64,000 nt of DNA from contig CAMUPF010000002.1 in assembly GCA_947090755.1 (NCBI GenBank), forward strand, positions 1-64,000, given 5' to 3'. Positions within the stretch are counted from its first letter, which is position 1. Each line of letters opens with the position of its first letter. This document shows, piece after piece, positions 10,772 to 59,431 of the stretch. The translations under genes were made by a program, and so were the position numbers. The notes below the pieces were generated by a model. It searched no databases, was not told where the DNA came from, and saw nothing but the letters and a program-made list of their open reading frames with translations. This DNA comes from an uncultured Candidatus Melainabacteria bacterium (GTDB taxonomy: Bacteria; Cyanobacteriota; Vampirovibrionia; Gastranaerophilales; Gastranaerophilaceae).

Positions 10772-11780
10772 TTATCGTTTTACACAACGGACAAAAGCAT
10801 TACTGGTTTTCTGCCGGTCGTCAATCTGCCCTGTATACGCGCCGGCTACTTGCATAAACCATGCAGCATAAGCATTTACCGGAGAAGAAGACCAGTAGCC
10901 TCCGTAGTCGGATTCAGGGTTAATACTAAACAAATTCATATTAACAAACATTGAAACCAGCTCCTCAACATTTGCAAGTCGATATTCACCGTCAAAATTT
11001 GAACAAGCTTTTGACGCTGATGTCCACGGATAAGAACCCAATGTTCTGGTTGCCGGATATGGCGCCGCGACTTTTACATCACTAGGATACATCGCAGTAA
11101 TAACCCCGATATCCTTGCCGACGGTATTCGGACCTTTATTGCCGTTCAAATCGTACACAAAATTTGCACAAACTTTTGGCTGTGAATAATATCCGCCATC
11201 ACCGCCCAGCGGCATCTCGCTTAAACTACCGATACAATTTGGGTTATAAAATACCGCAATACTTTCTCCATTCTGTGTTTCAAATGCCGCGGCTTTTGTA
11301 TTAAGCAAAGACATCGAATCGGTTCCCGTTGAGCGCGCACCTACCATATACGGATTCAATTCTTCCATAGTTGTAGGAAACGAAATCACACTTGCGTTCA
11401 TAGTAGTTATTTGTGAAGCAATGCCGCAATCAGCCAAATGGTCATTGTCGCAAATGTTGTTTATTTTAAGGACTTTTGAAAGCCCTTCCGTGACAAAGGT
11501 TTCAGCCGCCGTATCCACCGCAGATGTTGAATCGTTGCCCTCGGTCAGTGTTCCATAACCATTCAACGCGGGCATTAGGGCTATTGCCTGTGAAAATCTT
11601 GCATAAAGCGCTTTTCGCTGTGTGTTCCACGTGCGTTCGTTAATATTACCCGTCAAAGACGGTAAAGTTATCGCCGCAACCACGCCGATTATTGTTAACG
11701 ACAATAATATTTCCGCCATAGTAAAGCCTGTTAAGAGAGGCCCCCCCCCCCCCTGTCCATGTTAATAGTCTATTTTTCAT
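10772..11780 (-). CDS. Type IV pilin-like protein, copy 1, phase-OFF
   Basis: The start ATG at 11780 (SD AAGAAAGGA) opens a leader of 9 codons, then a run of 13 G, then a frame reading PLLTGFTMAEILLSLTIIGVV. With 13 G the leader frame and the pilin frame do not match: translation runs into a TAA about 40 codons on. 12 or 15 G would restore one frame. The downstream part has the prepilin peptidase site G/FTMAE with the conserved Glu and the hydrophobic helix, followed by a pseudopilin-like region. The C-terminus (YWSSSPVNAYAAWF... VRCVKR) resembles the DUF1566/Lcl domain. It would be displayed at the cell surface or pseudopilus when ON. A close paralogue lies at 18245-19229. Confidence 0.85.
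11741..11753 (-). repeat. 13-G homopolymer (phase-variation tract), copy 1
   Basis: Thirteen C on the plus strand, in the leader of the pilin-like gene between its start codon and the GFTMAE site. A change of one base switches the reading frame. Confidence 0.9.
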
Positions 11781-18244: not shown

Positions 18245-19229
18245 TTAACGTTTAATACAATTTGCGCTTGCTGAACCGGCAGTCTTACTTCCGAAAGTTT
18301 GCAAAAAGCCGATATCCCACATATAATATGGTCTTCCGCCTGAATACATTGTTGACGACCATGACGTATACACATTACGAATTAATTTTTTATTTATTAT
18401 ATACGCAGCCAGTTCATCATTATTTGGTAATCTATACTCATCACCAAGGTTACGACAAGATTCAACTGCTTGAGACCATGTGCCGTTTCCATTAGTTTTC
18501 ATCTCCTGAAGTAATACAACGGAACTGTCAACAGGGTAGAAAACACTAATTACGCCTATATCTTTGCCCATTGTATTTGGCCCTTTATTACCATTCAAAT
18601 CATATACAAAATTTACACAGAGCTTTGGCCAGATAATATACTCAAATTCACCCATATACGACTGACATTTTGGGTTATAATATGCGATAATGCTTTCACC
18701 ATTGGCTGTTTCAAATGCGGCAACCTTTGTATTTATCGCCGAATAACTCTGTGCAAAGGTACCATTAGCATAAGCCCAGCTTACAGAAACCAAATTTACA
18801 TTCAAATCCTTCAATGTTGTAGGAGTATCAATAATTGAACCGTTTATAGTTGTTAATTTTGCAACAATTCCGCAATCTTCAATATGCTCAGAATCACAAA
18901 TATTGTTAATTTTAAGCACCTTTGATAAACCTTCCGTTATGAAGGTTTCGGCCGCTGTATCGGCAGTAACACTATGGTTTTCGTCTTCTGTTAACGTTCC
19001 GTAACCATTCAACGCAGGCATTAAAACTATTGCCTGACTCATTCGCGCATAGAGCGCTTTTCTCTGCGTGTTCCACGTCCGCTCGTTAATATTACCGGTG
19101 AGTGCTGGAAGCGTTATCGCTGCCACTACGCCGATTATTGTTAATGACAGAAGTATCTCCGCCATAGTGAAGCCTGTTAAGAGAGGCCCCCCCCCCCCCT
19201 GCACAAATTGATACACTATCTTTTTTCAT
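18245..19229 (-). CDS. Type IV pilin-like protein, copy 2, phase-OFF
   Basis: Paralogue of 10772-11780, nearly identical over the first 80 residues of the pilin part (GFTMAEILLSLTIIGVV, NINERTWNTQRKALYAR). ATG at 19229 follows SD GTGAGGA and opens a 10-codon leader, then 13 G, then PLLTGFTMAE in a different frame. 12 or 15 G would put the gene ON. With 13 G a GTG at 19216 is in frame with the pilin, but its distance to the SD (about 20 bases) is poor. The OFF product would be about 45 codons long. The C-terminus (EYRLPNNDEL... SANCIKR) is a diverged DUF1566-like domain, so the two copies would display different surface domains. Confidence 0.85.
19187..19199 (-). repeat. 13-G homopolymer (phase-variation tract), copy 2
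   Basis: Same length and same downstream flank (CCTCTCTTAACAGGCTT) as the tract at 11741-11753, inside the leader of the second pilin-like gene. Confidence 0.9.
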
Positions 19230-36831: not shown

Positions 36832-36987
36832 CGTTACCTCTTATACATTTTATAAAAAGTATTTTACAAAAAAATTGCCCTTCGGGGTTTTTATATTAAC
36901 TTTTGTAACAAAAGCCACCCCAAACTAAAGATTTACCCGTATTTTTCCGACAAAAAGACTAAGGAAACTTTGGCAAAGGAATGTTTT

Positions 36988-39900
36988 ATGTCTATTGATG
37001 CAAGAGTAAAAGCTATAATAGAAAACAGAAAAAACAACTTCTACGATCTTTTTGACGAATTCAAAGACGAAGACGTGAACTATTTTGATGGTTATTCCGA
37101 ACCAAAATTTGATTTTGAAGCCGGTTCTGATGAAGAAAAGATTTATAATCAAAAAATGGCGCGTTTTAAAGCTTTAAGCGCACGCATAGAATCAAACGCA
37201 AATATTTACTACACAGATGACGAATCAAGCGACTTCTTCGGATATAGTTACGAAGAAATTATCGGTATGGCAAACAACGGAACGGTTATTCCTGATGAAG
37301 TCTTAAGCTGGGCTTACTCTATGGCAGAAAAGAACCCTCAGGGTGAAACAACCGATACCGCCGAAGACACTAATGACGCACAGGAATTATACAAAGCGTT
37401 AAAACAAAATCCTAAACTTAACATCAAAACAATCACCAGAATCTTCGCGTCTAAATGTATTGAGCAAGAAGATGAACTTGAAGCCTACCTTGACGAAATC
37501 GCACCTATTGAAAGAGAAATGGAAAGTGCCAGAGTTGAGGCTGAAACTCAAAGAGCCGACGCATTGATAAAAATTAAAGATTTGGCAAAAGAATGGAAAG
37601 ACTTAAAATCAAAAGTTGAAGGCGGCGAAGAATTATCTGCCGAAGAACAAGCAAGATTTGAAGAATTAAAAGACGAATTTGGCGCAGAAGACAAAAAATA
37701 TCAAAAAGCCATTGACTCCGCAACTAAAAACTTCACCAAAATCGGTGAAAGATTGACATTTGTAACCGGCAAAGCCGACACGACCTTCGACTTTGGAGAA
37801 CAAACCGTTGAAGTAGCAAAAGAACTTTCCGAGTTTGAAAAAACACACAAAAGAACCGGAATCTTTGGCGGAATGATAGCAATGGGAATTGCCGGTGTTC
37901 TTGGTATAGACGGATTCGGCGGTGTAAAACGATTCTCTGAAATCGCTACAACAATAGGTACCAACACCCAGTTCTTTGCAGAAGATGTTAATGATGTGAT
38001 TAATGAAGTCCAACTTCTTATGGACGACGTTGCAGATACTGCAAAATTCGACATCAACGACCCGTCACATAAAGTCGAACCGCTCACTAACGACCCAAGT
38101 ATTGATGTTCCAGAACTCAAAACAGTTACAAAACCAAAAGGCGTTGGCACAGAAGAAGTTTCATCTGAATCAGAAGAAGAAGAGCCGGTTGAAGGCGAAG
38201 AAGTCGTTGAAGACGCGACAACAGAACAACCGGTAGAAGAAAACGTAGAAAATCCTGAAGGCGAAACTGAAACCACAGAAGAAACCGACGAAAACAGCGA
38301 ACCCGAAGAACCCGTCGAAGAAGACCCACGTACCAAAGAACAACAATTGATTGAAGAAATGAATCTTCAAAACGAAAAACTTTCTCAAATCAAACCGGTT
38401 ATAAAAGCTGACGGTAAAACATCAACCGCACTCGGTATCGAAAACGTTAAGAAAACAAAAGAACTTGAACCGCAAATTCCTCAAATCACAGAGGAAGCAA
38501 TCGCTGTTGCGCGCGCAAAACGTGACAAAGAAGCAGAGGCGAAAAACAACGCCGGTACCGCAAGTTCTGAACTTGAAGCACAAGGCCAAACCGAACAAAT
38601 CGCAGAAGGTACTCAAGAACTTGAAGAAGATAAAAAAGAAAAAGAAACTATCTTCGATCAATACAACAACGATTTCCAACAAGATAAAGCTAAAAACGCA
38701 CAGTTCTCACAAGATATCCAAAACAGCAACACCGAATCTAACACAGGTTTAGAACTCGGTGCCCAAGGTTCTGCGACCGGAATGGAAAGAACAAATATAG
38801 GTGCAGGCGAAATCGCAACAGGCACAATGCTTCTAATGAACTGGATGAATCCGGTTTCAATTATGCTCGGCCGTAAATTAATCAAACTTGGCAAAGAAGA
38901 TACCGCGCTTGGCGGAAGTTTATTAGGTTCAGGATTAGCATTAACAGTCAACAGCGGTGTAACAATGGCTGTAAATTCGGTTGCAAGCGACAGCGTTGCG
39001 GCTTCCAATGAAAAAACCGACGAATCAGCGGCTATTGTAAAAGGCTTTGAAACAGACGTCAACGCCGCAGTCGAAGAACAACTTGAACAGGATAAAGAAG
39101 CCGAAGAAGCTAAAGAAACAGAACAACCTGATGACAAGAAAGCAGGAAAAGAAGAAGACAAAGAAGTTACACCTGAAGATTCCGGTGACGCGGTAGGCGA
39201 TGCAGAAGATGAACAAGAAAATGCTGAAAACGAAAACGAAAAAAATGAAAAAATCGCGAAGAAAACAGATAAAAAATTAAAGAAAAATGATAAAAAATTA
39301 AAAAAGACTGATAAACAGGCTAAAAAAAGCGACAAAGAAGCTAAGCTTGAAGACAAAAAAGGTGTACAAAGCGGCAAACAAGGTGAAGAAGAAGCTAAAA
39401 AAAGTAATACCGATGAAGCCAATGGTTCAGCAGAAAAAACAACAGAAGATTTAGCAGAAACCGCTGTAATTTCAGAAGAAGTTACACAATTAGCAACAGA
39501 AGCGGAACAAGAAGCCAACGACTTACAAAAAGCAAGTGCAGAAGCTCTTTCTGAAAACCAGGCAATTGTTACGGAAATGGGCATAATTAATAATGAGTTG
39601 CAACAAGATGATGCTAAACTCAAAGATATTGAAAACCAAATCCAACAAGAAAGTAATAAGCTTGCCGAAGATAATGCTCAGCCGGCACAGCAGCCTCAAC
39701 CACAACCGGTTCAGCAACCTAAAAAGGCACCTAAAAAACAACCGCAAAAACCGGCAGAAGAAAAAGAAACTCCGGCGGAAAAAGCTGAAAATGCAAAAAT
39801 TGAAGCAGATATTAAAAAAGCCAAAAAGCAATCCAACGCTCAGGCTCCTAAAAAAGCTCCTGCACAAACGACACAACCGGAAACTGCGCCGGAAGGCTCT

Positions 39901-41388
39901 GACAAAATTGAATATTCTTCTGACAAAGAAAAACAACCATCTTTTGTAGGTTTCGTTGCACAAAGTGACAGCCTTGCTTCCGGCAGTGCACTTGCAGGTT
40001 CAAACACGACTTCCACGCAGCCACAAGAAAATAACAATCAAGGTAACGGCGCAAGCATTATGGCATTGAAGAATGCACAAAACAAGAAAAAAGCAGCGCA
40101 AAAGAAACAACAAAATAAAACCACAAGTGCAAACCCTGCCGGCAATACAGCCCCACAACAAGATGAAAAACAAATCATTACAGCAAACAGAACTACTGAA
40201 AAACCATTTGATATCAATTCAATGGACGGCGGCAACGATAAAGTACAAGGTTTAAGGCAAAGTGCAGAAGCTCTCAGAGCACAAGCATTTCATAAACAAG
40301 CACGGTTGCGCGATATGTATATTCGCGCTAACAACAATGCTATGCAAAGAATTGCAGAAGAAGCACGCATTCAAGCAGAAAATGCAAGAAAACAACGTTT
40401 AGCACAGGAAAAACAAGAACGTATCGCTAAAATCAAACAATATGCAGGCTATGTTCAAGGCATTGGCAGCTTGACAACGACAGCCGGTATGATTGTTGAA
40501 AAATGCGGTACTGCACAAGTTTCAGCCGGTACTGCTCAGGTCACCGCAGGTACATCACAGATGACAGCAGGTCTTACACAAGTCACAACAGGCACAGTGC
40601 AAGTTACTACGGGTACTACAATGGTTACAACCGGTACCGCACAAGTAACCGCCGGAACGACTCAAATAACAACCGGTACAGGTCAGGTAACGTCCGGTAC
40701 AAGTATGATTTCATCAGGTACGACAATGATTTCAACCGGAACTCCTATGTTATCAAACCCATTTACAGCAGCTGCCGGCGCTGCATTAGTAGCAGGCGGT
40801 ACGACTATGGTTGTTAATGGTTCAAGCTTAGTCGCAACCGGAACAGCGATGATTGCCACGGGAGGAACACAAATCGCAACCGGTACTTCAAATATCGCAA
40901 CCGGTACTTCAAATATCGCAACCGGTAGTGCTAATATAAGTTCAGGCAGTGCCCAAATTTCAGCCGGATCTGCACAGATAATCACCGGTACTGCGCAGAT
41001 TGCAAGCGGTACTAGCTTAGTTGCAACCGGTGCTACTTTACAAACTATCGGTACAATTGTGACCGCGGCCGGCGCCGCTACAAGCGCCGGCGCTGATATC
41101 GCTAACGGCAACATACTCGGCGGTATTGCTTCAATCGTTGGTGCAGCAGCTTCTGTCGTCGGTTGCGCCGCTCCTGTTTCTCAATTAGGAAACGCCGCTA
41201 TGCAACTCGGTTCTCAAGGTATTGCAGTAGCCGGTCAACTCACCACTTCCGGCGCGGGTCAAGACAACGGTAACCAGCAACAAGACCAGAAGAAAAAGAA
41301 AAAATTCAAACAAAACGCAAGAACTCAAGGTATTATGGACAAAGCCGCACAACAAAAACAAGCCGTTGGCAACAGATTCAACAAATAA
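36988..41388 (+). CDS. Very large lineage-specific repeat protein
   Basis: 1466 residues from the ATG at 36988 (SD AAAGGA; an upstream TTG at 36970 has none). Order: a folded, acidic N-terminal part (1-330); Glu/Thr/Val-rich spacer (about 370-460); helical segments; two hydrophobic stretches (about 610-665); a Lys/Asp heptad block KKTDKKLKKNDKKL (about 757-785); Gln/Pro/Lys-rich linkers; and a long Gly/Thr repeat region (about 1174-1355) of 7-residue units such as TGTAQVT, with a glycine- and alanine-rich hydrophobic end before a basic tail. No signal peptide. The repeats could form a beta-solenoid or membrane-inserting structure. No family recognised. Confidence 0.8.
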   Translation: MSIDARVKAIIENRKNNFYDLFDEFKDEDVNYFDGYSEPKFDFEAGSDEEKIYNQKMARFKALSARIESNANIYYTDDESSDFFGYSYEEIIGMANNGTVIPDEVLSWAYSMAEKNPQGETTDTAEDTNDAQELYKALKQNPKLNIKTITRIFASKCIEQEDELEAYLDEIAPIEREMESARVEAETQRADALIKIKDLAKEWKDLKSKVEGGEELSAEEQARFEELKDEFGAEDKKYQKAIDSATKNFTKIGERLTFVTGKADTTFDFGEQTVEVAKELSEFEKTHKRTGIFGGMIAMGIAGVLGIDGFGGVKRFSEIATTIGTNTQFFAEDVNDVINEVQLLMDDVADTAKFDINDPSHKVEPLTNDPSIDVPELKTVTKPKGVGTEEVSSESEEEEPVEGEEVVEDATTEQPVEENVENPEGETETTEETDENSEPEEPVEEDPRTKEQQLIEEMNLQNEKLSQIKPVIKADGKTSTALGIENVKKTKELEPQIPQITEEAIAVARAKRDKEAEAKNNAGTASSELEAQGQTEQIAEGTQELEEDKKEKETIFDQYNNDFQQDKAKNAQFSQDIQNSNTESNTGLELGAQGSATGMERTNIGAGEIATGTMLLMNWMNPVSIMLGRKLIKLGKEDTALGGSLLGSGLALTVNSGVTMAVNSVASDSVAASNEKTDESAAIVKGFETDVNAAVEEQLEQDKEAEEAKETEQPDDKKAGKEEDKEVTPEDSGDAVGDAEDEQENAENENEKNEKIAKKTDKKLKKNDKKLKKTDKQAKKSDKEAKLEDKKGVQSGKQGEEEAKKSNTDEANGSAEKTTEDLAETAVISEEVTQLATEAEQEANDLQKASAEALSENQAIVTEMGIINNELQQDDAKLKDIENQIQQESNKLAEDNAQPAQQPQPQPVQQPKKAPKKQPQKPAEEKETPAEKAENAKIEADIKKAKKQSNAQAPKKAPAQTTQPETAPEGSDKIEYSSDKEKQPSFVGFVAQSDSLASGSALAGSNTTSTQPQENNNQGNGASIMALKNAQNKKKAAQKKQQNKTTSANPAGNTAPQQDEKQIITANRTTEKPFDINSMDGGNDKVQGLRQSAEALRAQAFHKQARLRDMYIRANNNAMQRIAEEARIQAENARKQRLAQEKQERIAKIKQYAGYVQGIGSLTTTAGMIVEKCGTAQVSAGTAQVTAGTSQMTAGLTQVTTGTVQVTTGTTMVTTGTAQVTAGTTQITTGTGQVTSGTSMISSGTTMISTGTPMLSNPFTAAAGAALVAGGTTMVVNGSSLVATGTAMIATGGTQIATGTSNIATGTSNIATGSANISSGSAQISAGSAQIITGTAQIASGTSLVATGATLQTIGTIVTAAGAATSAGADIANGNILGGIASIVGAAASVVGCAAPVSQLGNAAMQLGSQGIAVAGQLTTSGAGQDNGNQQQDQKKKKKFKQNARTQGIMDKAAQQKQAVGNRFNK
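40506..41060 (+). repeat. Tandem 21-bp repeats encoding Gly/Thr heptapeptides
   Basis: About 25 imperfect units, broken once (about 40740-40830) by a unique stretch. Units read as TGTxxVT / AGTxQIT / GTSNIAT. Two adjacent units (about 40880-40920) are identical at the DNA level, showing recent duplication. Confidence 0.85.
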
Positions 41389-41417
41389 TTGTAATTTTCA
41401 TAAACTTATAGTATACT
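41389..41417 (+). promoter_or_regulatory. Promoter of the micropeptide mRNA
   Basis: TTGTAA (41389-41394), 17 bases, TATACT (41412-41417). It starts one base after the stop of the large repeat gene. Predicted transcription start is about 41424. Confidence 0.6.
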
Positions 41418-41438
41418 TGCAATACGGGTAAGTACCTA

Positions 41439-41491
41439 CACTTCCTCTGACACACGCGATTATATGAAGAAATCGGTCAGTAAAGGAGGTG
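41439..41491 (+). promoter_or_regulatory. Leader hairpin that buries the micropeptide SD
   Basis: CACTTCCT (41439-41446) pairs with AGGAGGTG (41484-41491), the SD itself, with one G-U pair. The helix continues after a 3-base bulge with CTGAC/GTCAG (41447-41451, 41476-41480) and CGATT/AATCG (41457-41461, 41471-41475). The apical loop is ATATGAAGA (41462-41470). Full-length mRNA should therefore be translated poorly. Confidence 0.65.
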
Positions 41492-41497
41492 GTTAAA

Positions 41498-41596
41498 TTG
41501 AGATTAAGGTTTGAAAAATTTTTGTACCTTTTATGCAAAGTGTACAAAAAAAGATTTCCAGTCCTAGAACTACTGGAAATCTTTTTAGAACATTAA
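41498..41596 (+). CDS. 32-residue micropeptide, TTG start, antisense to a small RNA
   Basis: Begins MRLRFEKFLYLLCKVY and ends LLEIFLEH. It is amphipathic and positively charged, with two hydrophobic clusters (FLYLLCKVY and FPVLELLEIFL). The AAAGGAGGTG before it is nearly a perfect match to the 16S 3' end, 6 bases from the TTG. The second half of the frame encodes the hairpin that also serves as terminator on both strands, so a plus-strand transcript could end just before the stop codon. Together with SD occlusion and an antisense RNA this resembles a type I toxin gene. Coding status is unproven, and the plus transcript could instead be a non-coding RNA. Confidence 0.5.
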   Translation: MRLRFEKFLYLLCKVYKKRFPVLELLEIFLEH

Positions 41597-41657
41597 ACTC
41601 ATAGGGTATGAAGTGAGTCCTTAAACTATGGTTTAGTCTTTAAGGGCTCATCCCTAT
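41546..41657 (-). ncRNA. Small antisense RNA of about 112 nt
   Basis: Driven by a consensus promoter (41692-41664) and ended by the terminator at 41585-41546. The predicted 5' end AUAGGG pairs with CCCUAU (41606-41601), enclosing an inner stem GAGCCCUUAAA/UUUAAGGACUC with one C-A mismatch. The unpaired side strand contains ACUUCAUA. The last 50 bases are antisense to the 32-codon frame. It is not a known family that I recognise. Position and structure suggest an RNA antitoxin or a regulatory RNA. Confidence 0.65.
41551..41587. terminator. Bidirectional terminator shared by the convergent RNAs
   Basis: AAAGATTTCCAGT and ACTGGAAATCTTT form a 13-bp perfect stem with a 9-base loop. The minus strand is followed by seven T, the plus strand by five T. 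Confidence 0.85.
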
Positions 41658-41663
41658 ACGTAT

Positions 41664-41692
41664 ATTATTTACTATTTTAAAGCGCTTGTCAA
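41664..41692 (-). promoter_or_regulatory. Consensus promoter of the small antisense RNA
   Basis: On the minus strand TTGACA (41692-41687), exactly 17 bases, AATAAT (41669-41664). It starts 8 bases after the mtnA stop. The same -35/-10 pair occurs in pilin-like copy 2. Confidence 0.75.
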
Positions 41693-41700
41693 GCCCTATG

Positions 41701-42759
41701 TTAAACTTTAAACGCTTCTGCGATAGATTTTTTGTAATCAGGCCGCAAAATACCTTTTTCAGTTATGATTCCGGCAATCAATTCGTGCGGTGTCACGTCG
41801 AAGCCAGGATTAATAACATTAACCTCTTTTGCGCAGATGATTTTTCCGTTAATATGCGTAACTTCTTCTCTGTCGCGCTCTTCTATTACAATCTCGTCGC
41901 CGCTTGCAATTGATGTGTCAATTGTGGAAAGCGGAGCCGCCACGTAAAACGGTACATTATGATATTTTGCCGCAATCGCAACTGTGTAAGTGCCGATTTT
42001 ATTTGCAGCGTCGCCGTTTGCAGCTATTCTATCCGCGCCTACAACTACCATATCAATCATACCTTTTTTCATAAAATATGAACACATTCCGTCTGTAATC
42101 AAAGTCGTCGGGATTCCATCCATTGTGAGTTCGAATGTGGTAATCCTTGCGCCCTGCTGACGCGGTCTTGTTTCATCCGCAAAGACCTGAACCGTATTGT
42201 CTTTTGCATAAGCAGAACGAACAACCCCCAGAGCCGTTCCATAACCAACGGTTGCGAGAGCACCTGCGTTACAATGGGTTAAAATCGTTGCGCCTTTCGG
42301 AACAACCTCCGCGCCATAATCGCCGATTTTTTTATTTATCGCAATGTCATCGTTTTCCATCTGAATCGCATTAACTTTTAATTCCTCAATTATGCCTGCG
42401 ACATCCTTTGTTGAATTGCTAATAACTTCTTTTTGTTTTTTAACCGCCCACATCAGGTTAACCGCAGTAGGGCGTGAAGTTGCCATATAATCAGCTTTTT
42501 TCAACAGTTCCGCCACGAACTCATCACGTGAAAGACCTTTTTGTGCCAGTTCCTGCGCGAACAAAATTACGCCGTGAGCACCTGCGATTCCGATAGCCGG
42601 CGCGCCGCGGACTATCATTGTTCTTATAGCCTGAAACATATCCTCGCCCGTTGTTATATTCACATACTTAAACTCGTGCGGGATAACAGTCTGATCTACC
42701 ATTTTTGAATAAGTATCAACCCATTCAATCGTTTTTATTTTTGAATTAAATTCCGTCAT
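41701..42759 (-). CDS. mtnA: Methylthioribose-1-phosphate isomerase
   Basis: 352 residues. Converts 5-methylthioribose-1-phosphate to the ribulose form in methionine salvage. Signatures: MIVRGAPAIGIAGAHG, the catalytic Cys in LTHCNAGALATVGYGTALG, and GADRIAANGDAANKIGTY with the catalytic Asp. SD AGGAGA. Its start overlaps the end of the membrane gene by 14 bases. No other salvage gene is nearby. Confidence 0.94.
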   Translation of the reverse strand: MTEFNSKIKTIEWVDTYSKMVDQTVIPHEFKYVNITTGEDMFQAIRTMIVRGAPAIGIAGAHGVILFAQELAQKGLSRDEFVAELLKKADYMATSRPTAVNLMWAVKKQKEVISNSTKDVAGIIEELKVNAIQMENDDIAINKKIGDYGAEVVPKGATILTHCNAGALATVGYGTALGVVRSAYAKDNTVQVFADETRPRQQGARITTFELTMDGIPTTLITDGMCSYFMKKGMIDMVVVGADRIAANGDAANKIGTYTVAIAAKYHNVPFYVAAPLSTIDTSIASGDEIVIEERDREEVTHINGKIICAKEVNVINPGFDVTPHELIAGIITEKGILRPDYKKSIAEAFKV

Positions 42760-58825: not shown

Positions 58826-59431
58826 ATGAAGAGAGTTTTAATTTTATTTTTAATGTTTTTATTAGCGTCCGGCACAACGTTCGCGGCAGAATGCTGCTCC
58901 AACAAAAAACAGTACGATTTTGATACTGAATACAAGTGTTCGCAATTGATTGAAAAAATCAGAGCGCAGAAAAATACATTGTACAACGTCCTTGGTCTTT
59001 CTGCCGAACAACAAAAGATAAAAGATGAAATAGAACTCCGGCGCAAGGCGGAAATGAAGCCATACACCGAAAATTTCCAATGTGAACGCAAAAAGCTTTT
59101 ACAGTTAGCAAAAACCTCATATAAATCAAAAGAGTTTAAAAAGCAGGAAAAAGTAACAAAAAAAGCTTGGAAAGATATGCATAGAATCTTTAAAAAATAT
59201 GACAAAGAGTTCTATAAAATCCTATGCTCTACCCAGAAAACAAAATACAAAGAAATCGTAAAACTTACAAAGCGTGACATAAAATACTGCCGGCTTAACC
59301 GGAAGGCTTGCCCTAAAGACCCTTATATGAATACTTTTGGCAAAAATGACGCAAAAAATGCCTGCGAAGTTTGTCCGAAGCACACAAAACATCACCCGTT
59401 AAATTTTAAATGCACGCCGGATGAGCCATAA
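58826..59431 (+). CDS. Secreted Cys-rich Spy/CpxP-like protein
   Basis: 201 residues from the ATG at 58826; the upstream ATG at 58811 falls before the -10 box. Signal peptide MKRVLILFLMFLLASGTTFA. The mature part is helical and very Lys-rich, with two LTxxQ-like signatures (LSAEQ and LCSTQ) about 95 residues apart, as in Spy/CpxP periplasmic chaperones. Ten or so cysteines, including CC at the mature N-terminus and CxxC at the end, are unusual for that family. Leaderless-type start. Confidence 0.7.
   Translation: MKRVLILFLMFLLASGTTFAAECCSNKKQYDFDTEYKCSQLIEKIRAQKNTLYNVLGLSAEQQKIKDEIELRRKAEMKPYTENFQCERKKLLQLAKTSYKSKEFKKQEKVTKKAWKDMHRIFKKYDKEFYKILCSTQKTKYKEIVKLTKRDIKYCRLNRKACPKDPYMNTFGKNDAKNACEVCPKHTKHHPLNFKCTPDEP

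Follow-up and report, generated by a model that had tools for sequence, protein, structure and literature searches.

A probable type I toxin-antitoxin-like module with a Shine-Dalgarno-hiding leader hairpin, from a new family in the Gastranaerophilales

Known type I systems and the layout of the locus

Many type I toxins are under two-step control, in which the nascent toxin mRNA is inactivated by its own structure and is then activated by processing (PMC11228461, PMC8167048). In the par/Fst system of the Enterococcus plasmid pAD1 the promoters are convergent, and a stem-loop in RNA I sequesters the Shine-Dalgarno (SD) sequence and restrains translation until RNA II pairs (PMC7472228). In ZorO/OrzO a structure in the 5′ UTR hides the ribosome binding site (RBS), and 5′ processing relieves it (PMC8309996, PMC11228461). 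The AapA/IsoA systems of Helicobacter combine SD-sequestering hairpins with a lock between the 5′ and 3′ ends (PMC6733600), and in TxpA/RatA of Bacillus the antisense RNA pairs with a long stretch on the 3′ side of the toxin mRNA (PMC8167048). According to reviews and a 2025 paper, type I systems were known from Proteobacteria, Firmicutes and Tenericutes only; the paper calls msoT1/msoA1 of Microcystis the first outside these groups and the first cyanobacterial candidate (PMC12390103). The msoT1 system was the sole cyanobacterial type I case in the literature that we searched, and a search on Melainabacteria or Gastranaerophilales together with toxins found no description of such modules.

The window analyzed here is a stretch of 64 000 nucleotides from an uncultured Candidatus Melainabacteria bacterium of the Gastranaerophilales. 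We conclude that its segment 41389–41692 is probably a type I toxin-antitoxin-like module on the chromosome, and that the family to which it belongs is new. A first-pass annotation had singled out the leader hairpin of this segment. The hairpin makes up one half of a convergent sense/antisense module that has sister copies. Neither the module nor the copies were in the annotation, and the finding was understated. The elements of the module are:

41389–41417, plus strand: RNA I promoter TTGTAA-17-TATACT (9/12 matches), with a predicted start near 41424
41426–41437, plus strand: 5′-terminal mini-hairpin of RNA I (GGGU...ACCU), the conserved AGGGUA..UACCC element; helix 1 of the alignment, with 92% of cells paired
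41439–41491, plus strand: leader hairpin of 8 + 5 + 5 bp that pairs the SD, with a conserved ACACR bulge and UAUGRAGA loop (covariance model score 77.8 bits; covariation)
41484–41489, plus strand: SD sequence AGGAGG within the lower stem, assigned from sequence (probability of being unpaired 0.01)
41498–41596, plus strand: ORF of a 32-aa micropeptide with a TTG start, MRLRFEKFLYLLCKVYKKRFPVLELLEIFLEH, of the subclass ending KxPxLExLExFL (homologues MKLGFILLVNYFVSRYKEKVPILEILELFLKS and others)
41548–41586, minus strand: perfect 15-bp palindrome within the ORF, read on this strand as an intrinsic terminator of RNA II with a U7 tract at 41552–41546
41541–41657, minus strand: predicted antisense RNA II of ~117 nt, both ends predicted, placed by its promoter (fold −35.1 kcal/mol, z = −4.1)
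41601–41657, both strands: hairpin AUAGGG...CCCUAU, the 5′ hairpin of RNA II and, on the plus strand, the likely 3′ end or terminator of RNA I (from the fold; arms covary, z = −5.6)
41664–41692, minus strand: RNA II promoter TTGACA-17-AATAAT (11/12 matches)

The two-strand module spans the whole of 41389–41692. It begins directly 3′ of the stop codon of a 1472-aa protein (36970–41388), and the next gene, mtnA (41701–42759), lies on the opposite strand and converges on it. RNA I comprises the hairpin and the 32-aa ORF, with a predicted length of ~240–247 nt. Throughout the family a −10-like element is typically found ~5–9 nt upstream of the conserved AGGG at the start of the leader. The 1472-aa protein contains acidic stretches and stretches rich in lysine, and it has a series of TGTAQVTAGT-like repeats at its C terminus. 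Elsewhere in the window two minus-strand genes (10772–11719 and 18245–19216) encode proteins of 315 and 323 aa whose N-terminal halves are pilin-like and nearly identical, whereas their C-terminal halves are different.

Judged from sequence, the family unites features of par/Fst, ZorO, AapA and TxpA/RatA, with no detectable sequence relation to any of them. With par/Fst it shares the convergence of the promoters, a peptide length of ~30 aa and a stem-loop upstream that sequesters the SD.

The leader hairpin

The three helices of the leader form the minimum free energy (MFE) fold of 41424–41600, of 41424–41500 and of the predicted full-length RNA I. The lower helix (41439–41446 with 41484–41491) has 8 bp, its 3′ strand being AGGAGGTG. 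The middle helix (41447–41451 with 41476–41480) and the upper helix (41457–41461 with 41471–41475) have 5 bp each, and bulges of 3 nt (UAA) and 5 nt (ACACG) lie between the helices. The first-pass annotation had reported helices of 8, 5 and 5 bp at 41439–41491, and its coordinates are exact, both for the leader alone and in the full transcript. It had also described eighteen pairs converging on the SD as unlikely by chance. Because two bulges split the helices, the SD is contacted by the lower 8 bp only; that the arrangement is not due to chance stands, on the covariation presented below, the energy alone being only moderately unusual. The leader fold has a stability of −21 kcal/mol (z = −2.7), and 2 of 200 shuffled sequences were equally stable.

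The proposed burial of the SD agrees fully with the folding calculations. In the window copy the probability that the SD is unpaired is 0.01, both in the leader and in the predicted full-length RNA I, and no alternative with an open SD is favored in 41424–41600 or in the predicted RNA I of 247 nt. When the upstream sequence is shuffled the mean probability becomes 0.47. Truncation of the window copy by 30 nt at the 5′ end in silico takes SD exposure from 0.01 to 0.78, and most other members show a similar opening when the first 30 nt are taken off in silico. Over 42 members the mean probability of an unpaired SD is 0.23, compared with 0.42 with shuffled leaders. In these folding models SD sequestration is a trait of the family.

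A 5′ structure that hides the RBS in the mRNA of a hydrophobic peptide of ~29 aa is likewise found in ZorO, and the 78% opening of the SD on truncation is a further point of likeness; no sequence relation to ZorO/OrzO was found. The module also resembles AapA in being a multi-copy chromosomal family with SD-sequestering hairpins and a full-length mRNA that is predicted to be inert. However, the local hairpins of AapA are transient and its 5′–3′ interaction is the stable lock, whereas here the local hairpin is the stable fold. The two ends of RNA I are complementary to each other, and their pairing covaries in the Gastranaerophilales family (z = −5.8; distinct cores p = 0.001), a possible further resemblance to AapA. 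The complementarity includes the mini-hairpin element at 41426–41437, and the recurrence of a 5′-end element near the 3′ end of RNA I may be compared with the direct repeats of par. In the window copy the 5′–3′ pairing is weak (−4.7 kcal/mol) and is not used in the MFE fold. Within genomes, cognate ends do not consistently pair better than non-cognate ends, doing so in only 13 of 24 cases. The 5′–3′ pairing was weighed as the principal lock of RNA I but was set aside. The first 6–8 nt of RNA I and RNA II are nearly identical (e.g. TGTAGGGC or AAAAGGGAA) and change together across the family.

How well is the leader supported by its relatives? In an Infernal model-fitted alignment of 46 distinct homologous rows 86.7% of cells pair, and changes on both sides are found in 13 of the 20 pairs. 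The covariation score is 0.298, compared with 0.158 ± 0.010 for shuffled controls (0 of 500 reaching it), and a slid control gave at most 0.081. In the core SD pairs only one side varies, in keeping with a fixed SD. Since a model-fitted alignment is biased toward the structure, an anchor-based pairing test was run too, in which five bases anchored on the CACA motif were set against five anchored on the SD and no structural alignment was used. The middle stem was fully paired in 31 of 45 members, compared with 8.2 on average and 16 at most when partners were swapped 2000 times; the swaps leave some relatedness in, but 24 distinct 5′ strands took part. The first-pass annotation had pointed to covariation in relatives as a check, and compensatory changes there are plentiful. 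RNAalifold returned no structure from a plain MAFFT alignment, as a result of indels around the helices, and the anchor-based and Infernal-aligned tests were used in its place.

The ACACR bulge and the UAUGRAGA loop are conserved in sequence to an extent that exceeds what is needed to hide the SD. This would be understandable if the leader were a sensor (a riboswitch, a protein-binding site or a thermometer) whose bulge and loop bind a factor that opens the SD. We regard this as rather unlikely. A search of Rfam with the window and the locus gave no match at the gathering threshold, and permissive E-values gave chance-level matches only. At −21 kcal/mol the leader is stable for a thermometer. 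Moreover, a copy in the same genome (L008, contig C8, about 58947–59190, minus strand; peptide MYFAVSEKALIILLLILLVLKLIH) hides its SD by a different hairpin that lacks the ACACR bulge motif, and it keeps the usual antisense promoter. A sensor would in any case be compatible with a toxin-antitoxin module and not exclusive of one.

The antisense RNA and the micropeptide

An antisense RNA gene overlapping the peptide mRNA is predicted on the opposite strand, where a promoter, a palindromic terminator and a stable fold are all present. The RNA II promoter has 10–12 of 12 matches in all 50 members, compared with 7.8 in control stretches and 9.0 for the RNA I promoters. A pattern made of this promoter and TAGGG was found at 30 sites in 59 genomes, and the reversed control pattern at none. 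By comparison of coordinates, 27 of these 30 sites adjoin leaders found independently by the covariance model. At the level of sequence, two independent searches on opposite strands meet at the same loci.

The 15 bp of the palindrome in the window copy are matched by 0 of 60 codon shuffles; over 40 members the mean stem score is 10.2, compared with 5.6 in shuffles. In the family as a whole, the next eight bases beyond the stem contain on average 5.2 T on the RNA II side and 2.7 on the RNA I side. A palindrome within the ORF that is U-rich on the RNA II side suggests that the peptide codons contain the terminator of RNA II. This differs from par, where a shared bidirectional terminator lies after the ORF. 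In most members the U-rich stretch is confined to the RNA II side of the palindrome, but the window copy also has a T5 tract on the RNA I side, at 41582–41586, following the palindrome on the plus strand. In this copy RNA I could end at the tract, within the ORF and short of its stop codon, to give a nonstop mRNA. The terminator of RNA I is non-canonical in most copies.

The predicted RNA II is complementary to the 3′ half of the ORF and to the 3′ UTR of RNA I. It ends within the ORF, downstream of the SD and with no overlap with it, and must therefore work through duplex degradation or refolding, if it acts as predicted. The long complementarity on the 3′ side, suited to decay by RNase III, is shared with TxpA/RatA. 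The differences from that system are that TxpA has 59 aa and that the part of the published account available to us does not describe the RatA terminator inside toxin codons; no sequence relation was found. In ZorO/OrzO, by contrast, OrzO pairs with the 5′ UTR (the EAP region), and the RNA II of par is ~40 nt long, compared with ~117 nt and complementarity to half the ORF here.

The micropeptide of the window belongs to a subclass (L015, L043, L022, L040 and L023) with the common ending KxPxLExLExFL. The other peptide classes are membrane-type helices of 21–30 aa, e.g. MAKEIIKTVITVIITVLKIIMIWL and MVEQIIKALVILELLAKLILAILQL. Sibling peptides are mostly 21–25 aa long, and their 17-residue hydropathy (KD17) is mostly 1.7–2.9. 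These peptides may resemble ShoB, TisB and DinQ. The KD17 of the window peptide is 0.5, less hydrophobic than most siblings; with its TTG start, this suggests that the window copy may be weak or decaying. The hydropathy of the siblings falls in the range of known type I toxins (PMC8309996). None of 15 peptide entries had a match in Pfam or NCBIfam, the known toxin families there included, in searches that are weak for such short peptides; with the same reservation, the lack of an Fst-type peptide motif is a further difference from par. MsoT1 has 63 aa and two predicted membrane helices, and the part of its description that we could consult mentions no such leader hairpin (PMC12390103).

For 52 of 58 sibling pairs (50–99% identity) pN is smaller than pS, with pooled values of 0.21 and 0.40, the pairs being non-independent. 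A few members (e.g. L032, L026 and L051) were entered with corrected starts or left out. The palindrome also constrains synonymous sites, so that the ratio is conservative. By this comparison of sequences, the sibling peptides are under purifying selection.

Distribution of the family and a model for its action

How widespread is the module? A DNA search of the same genome found four further units, on contigs C18, C3, C15 and C8, of which the first three have the same leader as the window. A first covariance model, made from four leaders of this genome, gave 50 credible members in relatives; two weak matches (L034 and L061), in which the other features are missing, were discarded as false. A second model, built from the members found by the first, has matches in 116 of 286 Gastranaerophilales genomes and 25 of 49 genera, with up to nine per genome, and almost all of them lie in one bacterial family. 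In a phylum-wide sample 62 of 292 genomes have a match, and among the matches listed all are in the same family. The exceptions are a weak match in another family (G050) and a member from an assembly of poor quality, where it sits on a short contig (G051). When named genomes were scanned with a pattern, the matches were to entries under Candidatus Gastranaerophilales and Candidatus Melainabacteria, and also under uncultured bacterium and Cyanobacteria bacterium.

The unit is found in many unrelated gene contexts, and two or three leaders may occur in tandem at a spacing of ~300 nt (G209:C22:8848-9514, G237:C2:55013-55405 and G079:C56:822-1196). In four genomes of the same genus (G001, G002, G004 and G006) there is only a short spacer, with no unit, between the 1472-aa repeat protein and mtnA, indicating a discrete cassette that has been gained or lost. 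No target-site duplication was seen at this locus. Scans of viral contigs with the leader pattern gave no match, and thus no sign of carriage by phage. Decay is seen too. One member (L024) has changes in the SD, start and stop, and two others (L041 and L019) have frameshifts, and in all three the RNA II promoter still has 11 of 12 matches. Though the cases are few, a broken peptide ORF with a preserved RNA II promoter is the pattern to be expected of a protective RNA and a peptide that harms the cell or that it can do without.

These observations bear on whether the peptide might instead be a regulated, non-toxic small membrane protein that modulates a membrane enzyme or a stress response, its dose being tuned by the antisense RNA. 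The purifying selection would fit, and the conserved charged residues of the window subclass (KEKxPxLELLELFL) could contact a partner. However, patchy presence, divergent and tandem multiple copies and gain at an intergenic site are better explained by a toxin-antitoxin system, as is the tolerance of ORF lesions while the antisense promoter is kept, which would be less expected of a housekeeping regulator, and we consider a small membrane protein quite improbable. A leader-peptide attenuator of a downstream gene, suggested by a short ORF followed by hairpins, is excluded for practical purposes, since mtnA lies on the opposite strand and converges on the unit, which moreover occurs in many unrelated contexts. 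A chance intergenic hairpin, with which an energy matched by 2 of 200 shuffles might be reconciled, is refuted by the comparative evidence, in the form of covariation in 46 distinct homologous rows and covariance model matches in >100 genomes, and its likelihood is negligible.

The best reading of the family is thus that it is lineage-restricted and type I toxin-antitoxin-like, and on its sequence features the module is predicted to work like such a system. RNA I would encode a putative membrane-active micropeptide and be inert in translation at birth, its SD being paired by the leader hairpin. The leader would keep ribosomes off the nascent RNA I until RNA II can pair. RNA II, made from the stronger, opposing promoter, would pair with the second half of the ORF and the 3′ UTR, and RNA I would be kept off or decay as an RNA duplex. 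Translation would be turned on when the anti-SD strand is removed or opened. The most likely activating step would be a cut in the conserved ACACR bulge, which is single-stranded and directly follows the anti-SD strand. According to the first-pass annotation, the full-length mRNA would stay silent until it is processed, unfolded or bound; this is plausible, and agrees with the principle documented for other type I toxins (PMC11228461, PMC8167048).

In such a module the DNA would be doubly used, with the peptide codons carrying the terminator of RNA II and the 5′ hairpin of RNA II being the 3′ end of RNA I. A more far-reaching form of the model is offered tentatively: this may be a lineage-wide toxin-antitoxin-like family in which the leader has its own sensor or cleavage site, in the form of the conserved bulge and loop, and almost all bases are used by both RNAs. 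The antitoxin terminator would then be translated as the toxin helix, and the antitoxin 5′ hairpin would form the 3′ end of the toxin mRNA.

The matches in >100 genomes of an uncultured gut lineage would widen the known range of type I-like systems. The comparative signal suffices to define an RNA family, and to annotate peptides that are likely to escape gene callers. An RNA terminator that overlaps the code for a membrane helix would be a tidy case of dual coding. Finally, two-step control, with an inert leader followed by activation, could be tested here beyond the usual model bacteria.
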